DNA of 64,000 bases from Sphingomonadaceae bacterium OTU29LAMAA1 (GTDB lineage: Bacteria; Pseudomonadota; Alphaproteobacteria; Sphingomonadales; Sphingomonadaceae). This document shows positions 4,236 to 63,931 of the stretch, piece after piece. Location of the stretch: positions 725,001 to 789,000 of the forward strand of contig CP099617.1 of the NCBI GenBank assembly GCA_024072375.1, read 5' to 3'. Both the position numbers and the translations under genes were made by a program. Under the pieces are notes generated by a model, which saw only the letters and a program-made list of their open reading frames with translations, did no database searches and was not told the origin of the DNA. The number at the start of each line of letters is the position of its first letter. Position 1 is the first letter of the stretch.

Positions 4236-5217
4236 CATCACCCTCGGCGATGCTCGCGGCGTCGGCGTATCGGCGCGCGATCACGGCGCAGGCGATCAGC
4301 TGGATCTGGTGGAACAGCATCACCGGCAGCAGTACCGCGCCGACCTGAGCCGCGGGGAACAGCACCCCGGCCATCGGTACGCCCGACGCCAGGCTCTTCT
4401 TGGAACCGCAGAACAGCAGCACGATCGCATCTTCGCGACTGAAGCCGAGCGCGCGTCCGGCAAGCCACGTCAGCAGCAACACCGCCGCGAGCAGCACGAT
4501 GCACAACCCGGCGATGAGGGCGAGATCGATCCCGGACACGCGGGTCCACAGCCCCTCGACCACCGCGGCCCCGAATGCGGTGTAGACGACGAGCAGGATC
4601 GATCCGCGATCGACGATCGTCAGCAACGCCTTCTGCCGTGCGACGAAGCCGCCGATCCACGGACGCAGCAGATGGCCGGCGACGAACGGCACCAGCAATT
4701 GCAGCACGATCGATTCGACCGCCGACAGCGAGATCCCGCCCCCCTGCCCGCCGATCCCGCCCATCAGCAGCGCAACGAGCGCAGGCGTGACGACGATACC
4801 GATGAGGTTCGAGAAGGACGCGCTGCAAACCGCAGCAGCGACATTGCCCCGGGCGATCGCGGTGAAGGCAATCGAAGACTGCACGGTCGAGGGCAGCAGC
4901 GTGAGGAACAGCAGGCCGGAAGCGACCGGACCGACCAGCCCCGGAACGTTGCCGAGCGCCAGTCCGAGCAGCGGAAACGCGACGAAGGTGGTGGCGAATA
5001 CCGCCAGATGCAGCCGCCAGTTGCGCGCTCCTTCCCAGATCGCCTCGCGCGACAGCTTCGCGCCGTGCAGGAAGAACAGCAGGACGATGCCGATGTCGGC
5101 GGCATAGCCCGCCACGACCGCCCATTGCCCGCGCGCGGGCAGCAGGCTGGCGAGCAGCACGGTGCCCAGCAACATCAGGATGAAGGGTTCGAAGACCGAG
5201 AGGATACGGCGGATCAT
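4225..5217 (-). CDS. Bile acid:sodium symporter family (SBF-like) transporter
   Basis: About 330 residues, almost wholly hydrophobic, with roughly ten predicted membrane segments beginning at FEPFILMLLGTVLLASLLPA. The order of segments and motifs such as FLTLLPSTVQSSIAFTAIARGN and CGSKKSLASGVPM are those of the SBF-like family (YfeH/RCH1 type), a branch of the bile acid:Na+ symporter superfamily; yeast RCH1 affects calcium, but substrates of the bacterial members are mostly unknown. The longer open frame to 5337 has no membrane-protein character, so MIRRILSVFEP at 5217 is taken as the start. It is convergent with cysQ and alone on its strand apart from the tRNA upstream. Confidence 0.88.
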   Translation of the reverse strand: MIRRILSVFEPFILMLLGTVLLASLLPARGQWAVVAGYAADIGIVLLFFLHGAKLSREAIWEGARNWRLHLAVFATTFVAFPLLGLALGNVPGLVGPVASGLLFLTLLPSTVQSSIAFTAIARGNVAAAVCSASFSNLIGIVVTPALVALLMGGIGGQGGGISLSAVESIVLQLLVPFVAGHLLRPWIGGFVARQKALLTIVDRGSILLVVYTAFGAAVVEGLWTRVSGIDLALIAGLCIVLLAAVLLLTWLAGRALGFSREDAIVLLFCGSKKSLASGVPMAGVLFPAAQVGAVLLPVMLFHQIQLIACAVIARRYADAASIAEGDAIA

Positions 5218-11654: not shown

Positions 11655-11860
11655 GGGCGGGTCCTATCGCGTTGGGGCTGGCTTGGTGTGATTCGGAGCG
11701 CCGAAGCAGGCGGCTAGACGCGTGGAAGTTGCCGAAGTTGCCACTACGGCGCGTTGAGAAACGCTTGCCGTCGAGTGGCGGGGGTTCGGGTGGTGATAAG
11801 GGGGTAGCGGGCCATGCCGGCACGCTGGCAGATTTGGGCGTTGTAGGACAGCGGCGTTGG
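11655..11860. other. Non-coding stretch upstream of the MATE gene
   Basis: Part of the 308-base gap between the MATE start (11654) and the valS end (11963). Apart from the paired repeat listed separately at 11861-11955, I see no open frame with coding character and no tRNA or riboswitch shape. The promoter of the MATE gene must be in here, but no convincing -35/-10 pair stood out. Confidence 0.5.
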
Positions 11861-11955
11861 TCGTCCCCGCGCAGGCGGGGATCCATAGAGGCTGACGTAG
11901 CGTAGGGAGCCGCACCGCTTGCCAATATAGATCCCCGCCTGCGCGGGGATGACGA
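11861..11955. repeat. Paired inverted palindromic repeat, family A
   Basis: Two arms in opposite orientation: TCGTCCCCGCGCAGGCGGGG at 11861-11880 and the reverse complement-like CCCCGCCTGCGCGGGGATGACGA ending at 11955. Each arm is itself a GC-rich hairpin (CCCCGC/GCGGGG). The pair is separated by about 45 bases of unrelated sequence. Related copies are at 17051-17078 and 52434-52530. The layout is that of REP/BIME elements. Here it sits between convergent-tail and gene-start positions and could also terminate valS transcription. Confidence 0.8.
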
Positions 11956-11962
11956 ACGGGAG

Positions 11963-14758
11963 TTACCCCAACCGCGCCAGCGCAGCCGAGAGGCGTTCGG
12001 CTTCGGCGGCCTTGTCGGCATGGTCGGCCTTGGCCTTCTCCACCGCCTCCGGCTTGGCGCGTTCGACGAAGCTGGGGTTGCCGAGGCGACCCGACAGCCC
12101 GTCGCGTTCCTTTTCCGCGGCGGCGATCGCCTTGGTCAGGCGGGTCCGTTCGGCGGCGAGGTCGATAACCCCCTCCAGAGGCAGTACGAAGGTCGCTTCG
12201 TCCACGACGACCTGTGCGGCGCCGCCGGTCGCATCGCCATCGGTGCGGTCGACGCGAGCGAGGCGGGCCAGCACCGCCGATTGGCGGGCGAGCCGCTCGG
12301 TTGTCTGTGCGCCGGCATCGCGTACGTGCAGTGGCAGGCGCGCACCCGGCGGCACGTTGAGCTCCGTTCGCGCTGCGCGGATTTCGCCGACGAGGCGGAT
12401 CAGCCAGTCGATCTCCTGCTCCGCCGCTGGATCGAGGCTGCGGGCGTCGGCCATCGGCCATTGCGCGACGATCAGGTCATGATCGCGCGGAGCCATCGCG
12501 TGCCACAGCTCTTCGGTGATGAAGGGCATGAACGGGTGCAGCAGGACGAGGATCTGGTCGAGCACCCAGCCGGCGACCACCTTGCTCTCCGGATCGATCG
12601 TACCCCGCTCGTCGCCGACCGACACCGGCTTGATGAGTTCGAGATACCAGTCGCAGAAGCGGCTCCAGACGAACTGGTAGATCGCGTTCGCCGCACCGTC
12701 GAAACGGTAATCCGCCAGCGCGAGGTCGACCGCCTGCACGGTCTTAACCGTCTCGGCGATGATCCACTTGTTGACGGCCAGCGATGCCGCGGGCGGCTCC
12801 AGCGTGGTCGATCCGCCGATACCGTTGGCTTGGGCGAAGCGGCTGGCGTTCCACAGCTTGGTCGCGAAGTTGCGATAGCCCTCGACCCGCTTCTCATCCA
12901 TCTTGATGTCGCGGCCCTGGCTCTCCATCGCCGCCATGAAGAAGCGCAGCGCGTCGGCGCCGTATTTGTCGATCAGGCCGAGCGGATCGACGGTGTTGCC
13001 CTTCGATTTCGACATCTTCGCGCCGTCCGCCGCTCGGACGAGGCCGTGCAGGTACAGCGTGCGGAACGGCACGTCCTTCATGAAGTGAATGCCCTGCATC
13101 ATCATGCGGGCGTTCCAGAAGAACAGGATGTCGAAGCCGGAGATGAGGACGTCGTTGGGATAGCGGCCGCCGAGTTGCGACGCGGAAAGCCCTCTCCCCT
13201 CAGGGGAGAGGGTTGGGTGAGGGGTCGACGTCTCACCGAGACCGCCCTCTCCGTGAGACCCCTGCCCCTCACCCCAGCCCTCTCCCCCGAGGGGAGAGGG
13301 AGTTGAGCCATCCCAACCCAACGTCGCGAACGGCCACAGCGCCGAACTGAACCACGTATCCAGCACATCGGGATCGCGGGTCAGGGCGACGCCCTCACCC
13401 GCCTCGGCCTGCGCCTCGGCCTCGGTTTCCGCGACGAAGATACGACCATCCTCGGCGAACCACGCCGGGATCTGGTGGCCCCACCAGAGCTGCCGCGACA
13501 CGCACCACGGCTGAATGTTCTCCATCCAGTTGAAGAAGGTCTTTTCCCACGTCTTGGGGACGATCCTGATCGCCTCGCTGCGCACGGCCTCAATCGCCGG
13601 CTTCGCCAGCGTCGCGGCGTCCACGTACCATTGGTCGGTCAGCCACGGTTCGATCACCACGCCGGAGCGGTCGCCGTACGGGGTCTGGATCGTGCGCGGT
13701 TCGGATTCGTGCTTCTCGCCGTCCTTGTCGACGTGCGGGATCAGGAAGCCTTCATCCTTCAACCGCGCGACCACGGCCTTGCGGGCTTCGGCGGTGGTCA
13801 GGCCGAGCAGGTCGTCGGGGATCAGGCCGTCGCTCGTCTGGACGACGCGGGCCTTGGCGTCGAGCATGTTGAGCATGTCACGCGCCTCGATCCCGGCGCG
13901 GCGGCCGACCTCGAAATCGTTGAAGTCGTGGCCCGGCGTGATCTTGACCGCACCCGATCCGAGTTCGGGATCGGCGTGCTCGTCGGCAACGATCGGGATC
14001 AGGCGGCCGGTGATCGGCAGGCGCACCTGCTGCCCGATCAGCGCGGTGTAGCGCGCATCCTCGGGGTTCACCGCCACCGCCATGTCGGCGAGCATCGTCT
14101 CGGGCCGCGTCGTCGCGACCTCGATGAAGCCCGATCCGTCGGCGAGCGGGTAGCGGAGGTGCCAGAACTGGCCCTTGATCTCGCGCGTCTCGACCTCGAG
14201 GTCGCTGATTGCGGTGCCGAGGCCGGGATCCCAATTGACCAGCCGCTTGTCGCGGTAGAGCAGGCCCTGGCGGTGCAGCTCGACGAAGACCTTGAGGACT
14301 GCCTTCGAAAAGCCCTCGTCCATCGTAAAGCGTTCGTTGGCCCAGTCCATCGAACAGCCGAGGCGGCGGAGCTGGCGCGTGATCTCGCCGCCGCTTGTCC
14401 CCTTCCAGTCCCAGACCTTGGCGACGAATTCCTCCCGGGTGAAATCGGTGCGCTTCTGCTGCTTGAGCGCCATCTGCCGCTCGACCACCATCTGCGTCGC
14501 GATGCCGGCGTGATCGGTGCCGACCACCCACAATGCGTCCTTGCCCTTCAGCCGCGCGTGACGGGTCAGGATGTCCTGCAATGTGTTGTCGAGCGCGTGA
14601 CCGATGTGCAGCGAGCCGGTGACGTTGGGCGGCGGGTTGACGATCGTCCACGGCTCCGCGTTCGGGCGATCGGGGCGGAACTGGCCGGTGGATTCCCAAT
14701 GGTCGTACCAGCGGGCTTCGATGGCGGCGGGGTCGAAGGTCTTGGGAAGCTCGGTCAT
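11963..14758 (-). CDS. valS: Valyl-tRNA synthetase, with an in-frame repeat insert
   Basis: About 931 residues. Charges tRNA-Val; class I synthetase with HIGH motif SLHIGHAL (near 50-56), KMSKS in [16 protein letters not shown] (near 580), editing domain between them, and a C-terminal coiled-coil arm ([20 protein letters not shown]). Start [18 protein letters not shown] at 14758 fits homologues; the open frame extends ten codons further. Odd feature: between FATLGWDGS and [17 protein letters not shown], where the family has a linker of roughly ten residues, there are about 45 Gly/Pro/Glu-rich residues encoded by a palindromic repeat (13190-13300). It lies in the catalytic-domain approach to KMSKS and apparently is tolerated. 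Confidence 0.97.
13190..13300. repeat. Palindromic repeat element inserted in frame inside valS (family C)
   Basis: Two copies in inverted orientation: 13190-13224 and 13265-13300. Each has a near-perfect hairpin: CCCTCTCCCCT-C-AGGGGAGAGGG at 13190-13212 and the like at 13278-13300, joined to a G/C-rich tail (TTGGGTGAGGGG in one, CCCCTCACCCC in the other). The reverse complement of the first copy matches the second over about 35 bases with three or four differences. The unit keeps the valS reading frame and encodes Pro/Gly/Glu-rich sequence such as [13 protein letters not shown] and [10 protein letters not shown], at about residues 486-523. Confidence 0.85.
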
Positions 14759-14830
14759 GGCGAAGGCTTTAGACGGCGGACAGGGCATTCGTCACCCCCT
14801 GGGGTTCACCCCCGGCATCCCGACTCCCGC

Positions 14831-14936
14831 GTCACCCCGGACTTGTTCCGGGGTCCACTCTGCGGCGGATTTTATTGCTTCTTCGCAGGGTTTTCCCGTT
14901 GCCGTACGGTGGACCCCGGAACAAGTCCGGGGTGAC
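14831..14936. repeat. Perfect 28-base inverted repeat pair, family B
   Basis: 14831-14858 begins GTCACCCCGGACTTGTTCCG and 14909-14936 is its exact reverse complement, ending GTCCGGGGTGAC; 50 bases lie between. Each arm also contains an internal hairpin (CCCCGGA.../TCCGGGG). It fills most of the gap between valS (start 14758) and the S9 peptidase (end 14944), both on the minus strand, so it could act as a terminator for the peptidase as well as being a repeat element. Confidence 0.88.
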
Positions 14937-14943
14937 GGAGGAG

Positions 14944-63819: not shown

Positions 63820-63850
63820 TACCTATCCTCTCCAATCACCGCTTCTTGTA

Positions 63851-63922
63851 CTCCTGCGAAGGCGGGAGGCCCAGAGTTCCGAGCGCATCGCTGCTGGCCT
63901 TGGGCTCCTGCCTTCGCAGGAG
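63851..63922. repeat. Paired inverted repeat, family D, in the edd-glk gap
   Basis: CTCCTGCGAAGGCGGGAGG at 63851-63869 pairs inversely with CCTGCCTTCGCAGGAG ending at 63922; the two arms are imperfect, each with a small hairpin of its own. Fills most of the 112-base gap between glk and edd. Same architecture as families A to C. Confidence 0.75.
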
Positions 63923-63931
63923 CACGGTCCG

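Follow-up and report, generated by a model that had tools for sequence, protein, structure and literature searches.

We know of no answer as to how short palindromic repeats move in genomes devoid of a RAYT, or why some of them sit in frame in essential enzymes. Among the elements to which such repeats can be compared, MITEs are short and gene-less, with ends resembling those of a longer, gene-bearing element. A first-pass annotation of the locus described here knew of no comparable in-frame events in sphingomonads, a group to which 'E. lithoralis' and 'S. alaskensis' belong. REPs in tRNA synthetase genes of these two bacteria are, however, already in print (Di Nocera, 2013; PMC3733652) and, in the parts of that paper available to us, different REPs are also described at about one site in recB of Xanthomonas. 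The Rickettsia palindromic elements (RPEs) comprise, according to the available part of a review, several palindromic families of about 150 bp which are located in frame in the ORFs of enzymes (PMC10969869, relaying Ogata et al. 2000/2002). In-frame palindromes as such are known.

The repeats reviewed below share with RPEs the existence of several palindromic families and an in-frame position in the ORFs of enzymes (valS, ileS, glyS, rnr, and carA), a likeness by description. Unlike what is described for RPEs, several families have each entered one and the same loop of valyl-tRNA synthetase (ValRS) in repeated invasions, and a nuclease gene is present in longer relatives of the repeats. With REP/RAYT systems, which are tagged GTAG or CGTC, they have in common, as far as the accessible text of PMC3733652 goes, inverted hairpin dimers that are mostly intergenic and occasionally in frame, tRNA synthetases included, as well as hairpins placed around a small gene whose product processes DNA. 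The partner found here is DUF559 instead, a Y1 tyrosine transposase not having been found in the genome under study. In the literature covered, from which subscription papers are mostly absent, no report was found that describes a single ValRS loop as being invaded repeatedly, or a nuclease as the partner of the repeats.

The palindromic insert of valS

The window, i.e., the whole stretch of 64,000 nucleotides that was analyzed, carries valS at 11963..14788 on the minus strand, a location that the first-pass annotation did not give. The listed ORF of 941 aa, in which the conserved ValS start lies 10 codons inside, matches 1gax (E 7e-198) and NCBIfam NF004349/TIGR00422. Within this gene, a palindromic dimer of 115 nt (13188..13302, no strand given), belonging to the family named F1 below, is located in frame and encodes part of a ValRS loop. 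As had been claimed, it contains two mutually inverted hairpins, which are found at 13190..13212 (CCCTCTCCCC TCA GGGGAGAGGG) and at 13278..13300 (CCCTCTCCCC CGA GGGGAGAGGG), each with a perfect stem of 10. An inner imperfect palindrome (13210..13279) is made of a subterminal GGGTTGGGTGAGGGG arm and a centre GTCTCACCGAGAC, both also present in F2 copies elsewhere in the same genome. Complementarity is 93% between the arms 13190-13217 and 13273-13300, and 78% between the inner parts 13210-13241 and 13248-13279. When folded, the insert forms one hairpin of -103.4 kcal/mol as RNA, against -62.7 (SD 4.2) for 200 shuffles (z -9.6), and so displays the whole-length palindrome folding that is a feature of RPEs. 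The outer hairpin pattern occurs twice in the window at up to 3 mismatches, with a mean of 0.00 in 100 shuffles. The valS ORF is free of stops across the insert, four of the six frames of the element being open.

Regarding the loop itself, the closest comparison is offered by Sphingomonas sp. UBA978 (L011), whose ValS is 90% identical. This protein is the best match in the named set, forms the sister row on the tree, and has an empty loop. From GW to RYPND, 49 residues can be counted in the window protein and 10 in this relative (+39), and over a longer interval 66 and 27, respectively. The annotation was right to expect about ten loop residues in an ordinary ValS and to call the insert in frame, while its size estimate of about 45 residues comes near, without equaling, the 39 additional residues or the 49-residue loop. 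Alignment to the ValRS of T. thermophilus (1gax), on which the placement is based, puts the insert site between residues 473 and 476; an AlphaFold model built on an alignment of 38 rows was of poor quality (mean pLDDT 58.5, pTM 0.38) and played no part in this placement. Since 1gax is without the insert, the empty loop is probably the ancestral state.

The reading that we favor, at a probability of roughly two in three, is that the insert of valS derives from a hairpin-nuclease element, has lost or never had its gene, and is tolerated in the loop, with a nuclease (DUF559, or GIY-YIG for family F5) as the candidate mover. A non-autonomous palindromic mobile element of about 115 nt, with two inverted hairpins and no gene, would have landed in frame in a ValRS loop able to tolerate some 30-45 extra Gly/Pro/Ser/Glu-rich residues. 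The DUF559 nuclease would recognize its own cognate hairpins, a GIY-YIG nuclease would take the same role for F5, and full units as well as gene-less dimers would be moved through cutting and repair. Selection would then retain intergenic copies, or in-frame copies in tolerant loops, and remove those out of frame.

The surroundings of the insert hold further repeats. Two palindromic dimers of another, CGTC-like kind are located directly after valS (11855-11958) and directly before it (14824-14943), so that the gene is bracketed by repeats besides containing one. An inverted pair of the CTCCTGCGAAGGCGGGAG type at 63848-63925 of the window is like some ileS and glyS inserts, and no DUF559 gene is found within the window. 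In ValS itself, another variable region, not palindromic in appearance, lies at about residues 431-455 of the window protein (P0001), where tens of extra residues are seen in L013, L025, L026, L031, L037, and others.

Inserts and empty loops across ValRS

The loop was read in 178 loci (171 by motif and 7 by hand), giving 148 ValS rows after duplicate removal and 147 in the tree, from which L062 was omitted for low coverage. With L076/L186, which have 33 residues in the loop, classed as being without insert, 43 rows of the tree display an insert and 104 do not. An evenly drawn sample of the genus has the insert in 23 of the 97 genomes read (of 101), in frame in 21 of these 23, while the named set has it in 25 of 80, these 80 being the best matches to an insert-bearing query. 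The inserts were assigned to families whose names, F1 to F5, were coined in the present analysis: F1 (CCCTCTCCCC/GGGGAGAGGG) in 20 ValS rows, F2 (CCCCTCCCCTTCAGGGGAGGGG) in nine, F5 (CCGTTCGTCCTGAGCGAAGTCGAAGG and variants) in eight, F3 (CCCCTCCCGC/GCGGGAGGGG) in three, F4 (CCTCCCCGG/CGGGGAGG) in two, the insert of L013 being of the F4 form, and another kind in one. F1, F2, and F3 are alike, and F5 is unlike them. As in RPEs, the inserts are open in frame in 40 of the 43 rows, the function of the protein being assumed from its essentiality.

On the ValS tree, the insert/empty state changes at least 17 times, and the count is 23 with F1 to F3 merged and 30 with all families, gain and loss being indistinguishable in such counts. 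A single ancestral insertion was rejected (AU test, one-clade constraint, p-AU 5.8e-36). The alignment across relatives, where the insert is present in some and missing from the nearest one, supports, together with dispersed copies and the occupation of this loop by other families, the earlier suggestion of a mobile MITE- or REP-like element that is tolerated in frame. The annotation would have counted against this suggestion the finding of the same loop with unrelated DNA in all sphingomonad ValS proteins. Such loops can in part be found, yet their unrelated DNA consists itself of palindromic repeats, which argues for repeated invasion. The recurrently invaded loop amounts to a set of natural replicates of selfish-peptide insertion in a single enzyme. 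It also calls for caution in annotation, stretches like 'SPLRGEG...PHPNPLPEGE' in synthetases being repeat DNA and no conserved domain.

As judged from nine close rows, where pN is 0.033 and pS 0.117 in the insert against pN of 0.006-0.010 and pS of 0.14-0.20 in the next four 126-nt stretches, constraint on the insert is relaxed, not neutral, which fits a peptide that is tolerated rather than needed. The mean number of open frames out of six is 3.75 in 40 valS inserts and 2.7 in their letter shuffles, a modest excess. A mean of 2.9 was obtained for 16 F2 copies in the genome of the window that do not lie in frame within a gene, all 16 of which have at least one open frame. As the dimers usually possess several stop-free frames, survival in frame becomes possible.

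In L074/L145 and L205, hairpin inserts are also located in frame in a second loop of valS, which follows LELIKP; the peptide of L039 at this second loop resembles, by its appearance, F5 in another frame. By eye, a further and different palindrome is nested inside the first-loop insert of L038.

DUF559 and GIY-YIG genes between hairpins

F2 hairpins are recurrently found about 410 nt apart, and the short ORF between them is DUF559 (Pfam, E 1e-26 to 5e-30 in three ORFs). An RNA gene in this interval was considered and rejected, Rfam giving no match in L266 and the content being DUF559. The protein is nuclease-like (PDB 3hrl, 'Endonuclease-Like Protein', E 4e-15) and belongs to the same Vsr-like/DUF559 domain as Caulobacter VsrA, which is treated as a mismatch-repair endonuclease in PMC12907096, in the available main text of which neither 'transpos' nor 'palindrom' occurs. 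Within the partly accessible literature, no link of DUF559 to palindromic repeats or mobility was found. According to a small HMM run over the studied loci, DUF559 adjoins hairpins of F1, F2, F4, and F8 (CCCTCTCCCACAAGGGGAGAGGG), the resulting hairpin-gene-hairpin units measuring about 420-570 nt. The examined loci from the genome of the window include no unit of DUF559 with F1 hairpins, and in this genome the DUF559 locus L007 has hairpins on neither side by the criterion used below.

Twenty-nine DUF559 loci were compared, 12 of them chosen because of their hairpins and 17 blind to hairpins, namely L338, L356, and L362 (chosen for glyS) and 14 plasmid records (of 31 with DUF559). By one fixed criterion, pyrimidine-rich hairpins flank the gene on both sides in 16 of the 29 loci and on at least one side in 25; among the hairpin-blind loci, these figures are 6 and 14 of 17, all six two-sided cases being from Sphingomonas. 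Randomly placed intervals in Sphingomonas loci gave 0 of 2720 for both sides and 37 of 2720 for at least one, and intervals elsewhere in the 14 plasmid loci gave 13 and 19 of 448, respectively.

It may be objected that the genes for DUF559 and GIY-YIG are mere passengers, the hairpins serving as their terminators or insulators while another factor moves the repeats. Association is not causation, the link between nuclease and hairpins being a genomic one only, and outside Sphingomonas the criterion is satisfied on one side at most: the 11 plasmid DUF559 loci in question comprise none with two sides, eight with one, and three with neither (L385, L389, and L397), although in L389 a 37-nt inverted repeat spans the gene. 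We nevertheless consider such a passenger role unlikely, if worth keeping in view, given the two-sided hairpins at 16 of 29 genes and three further lines of evidence. Firstly, nuclease clades largely track hairpin families. On a DUF559 tree with labels assigned in the present analysis (23 rows labeled and 6 left out), the hairpin families require 6 changes, the minimum being 5, against a mean of 14.3 after shuffling (0 of 200 as low). F1, F2, F4, and F8 each lie on one side of a branch, while F3 and the loose group AZ, which lumps several one-sided hairpins, are not single clades; in this labeling, L389 counts as F4 from its inverted repeat and L254 as F1 from one hairpin. Secondly, gene-less dimers and DUF559 units share like terminal and subterminal sequence in F2 (genome of the window), F1, and F4. 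Thirdly, a complete unit is present or absent between close genomes, the unit of about 574 nt in L362 being replaced in L361 by 6 nt, a near-clean empty site with flanks 94% and 96% identical.

In having short gene-less dimers with ends like those of longer, gene-bearing and putatively autonomous DUF559 units, these repeats are like MITEs, and dispersed multiple copies, another MITE criterion, can be found in the genome of the window, where the genome-wide search proposed in the annotation places the F1 pattern at 10 sites (up to 2 mismatches) beside 23 F2 hairpins. They differ from MITEs in that the gene is no known transposase and that the ends are themselves hairpins. Of the two loci considered for target duplication at the unit edges, L356 has a 5-bp repeat and L362 none that is evident.

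As for F5, a GIY-YIG gene is located between its hairpins in L301, where the gene comes from ORF reading, and in the plasmid locus L398. Of the 30 GIY-YIG plasmid records, three were examined (L398, L399, and L400); L400 has a different inverted pair around the gene and L399 has none. From these gene arrangements, we infer the nuclease to be the probable mover of the repeats. In a wider form, for which we would give barely better than even odds, many of the C/T-rich palindromic repeats that are widespread in Proteobacteria would be the gene-less debris of a class of mobile elements still without a name, in which a small DUF559 or GIY-YIG nuclease lies between cognate hairpins. A few synthetase loops of Sphingomonas (ValRS, IleRS, and GlyRS beta) would then be recurrent in-frame safe harbors, leaving core translation enzymes with shifting selfish peptides. 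Both questions raised at the outset, i.e., movement without a RAYT and in-frame sites in essential enzymes, can now be tested, as there is a specific candidate enzyme to which a hairpin family of its own belongs, besides an empty site and a recurrently invaded loop.

DUF559 units can also be found inside operons, between sufB and sufC in L384 (annotated) and between transhydrogenase genes in L390; by eye, the units of L266 and L369 apparently adjoin sufC.

Turnover of valS inserts and sites in other genes

The family present in valS is more abundant in the same genome than with shuffled labels (permutation p 5e-5, n=20 genomes with F1, F2, or F5 in valS), and the association holds with related genomes collapsed (p 0.015, n=13). 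For these counts, F5 was searched on both strands and F1 and F2 once, reversed control patterns giving 0 or 1 per strand. Some genomes run counter to this rule. The genome of the window has 23 F2 against 8 F1 hairpins, though its valS insert is F1; G072 has no F1-pattern match, and G082 and G099 are richer in another family. F5 repeats were also sought in the genome of the window and rejected, 7 matches being obtained at 2-3 mismatches, compared with 1 when the pattern was reversed, and 0 with a stricter pattern.

The valS pattern could also stem mostly from interspecies homologous exchange of valS alleles combined with gene conversion among the repeats already resident, true insertions being few. 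Such an origin would account for the loop edges common to distant rows (DGS on the left and QLGG on the right) and for the coexistence of F1, F5, and empty loops inside one tight clade. However, families and edges differ among rows, and the family in valS follows local genome abundance. Allele exchange may add to the turnover and leaves the first arrival unexplained, and it is quite unlikely to be the main source of the pattern.

Movement by a RAYT (Y1/HUH) transposase, the enzyme that usually mobilizes REPs, is suggested by the inverted REP-like dimers and by the CGTC REP families reported for S. wittichii and S. chlorophenolicum in the accessible part of PMC3733652. Y1_Tnp (PF01797) is, however, not found in the genome of the window. 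It is present in 11 of the 101 genomes of the genus sample, and the 90 others include the repeat-rich G017 (84 F1 hairpins) and G021 (136 F2 hairpins). By eye, no GTAG/CGTC tag can be seen at the F1 ends of the valS insert. A RAYT as mobilizer is therefore unsupported and highly improbable, the DUF559 nuclease being the better candidate.

Three valS inserts break the frame. In L032 (S. metalli), an in-frame TAA is found in the insert at 4430-4460; in genome G023 (L107/L177), the insert is collapsed to one hairpin with a frameshift; and in G082 (L189), a G run has an extra base. In G023 and G082, nothing matched ValS except the two fragments of this gene. The likely cause of these breaks is sequencing error, while a frame-broken valS may otherwise give a split or re-initiated ValRS. 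That the insert of the window is itself an assembly or sequencing artefact is scarcely credible: strong hairpins do provoke errors, as the three broken frames and the pattern matches that G089 and G053 have at contig ends would suggest, but 40 of the 43 insert rows, which come from many projects, keep the frame, and the window genome is assembled in 2 contigs and rated 100% complete.

A hairpin scan around valS (1.81 Mb, 126 loci) gave 80 elements. The valS loop holds 25 of these and one more that has a stop (L032), another 2 lie in frame at the second loop of the gene, and the other 52, located elsewhere, are not in frame by coding score. Besides valS, 2 of 21 tested places in the genome of the window are in frame (glyS and rnr), as are 2 of 62 sampled elements from six other genomes (ileS and carA). 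The gene names were checked with NCBIfam, rnr scoring below the RNase R cut-off (575.6 vs 597.85 bits). Ten or more extra residues are present behind IPMD of IleRS in 23 of 30 loci, 20 of which have a hairpin stem of at least 8, and behind ILKKEG of GlyRS beta in 20 of 30 loci, 19 of which have such a hairpin; the 30 + 30 loci being the best matches to insert-bearing queries, these rates are biased upward. As a measure of chance, 2 of 23 stretches of a neighboring palindrome-free glyS block have a stem of 9. Several palindrome families recur at each of the two sites.

In the glyS of the window genome (L123, 377-2860), two different in-frame palindromic inserts can be seen, the second peptide being like the element nested in the valS of L038. 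Upstream of glyS, the junction with the preceding gene, presumably glyQ, differs between species across L336-L365, some having a small overlap and others up to about 600 nt, and it is filled by DUF559 units in L338, L356, and L362.
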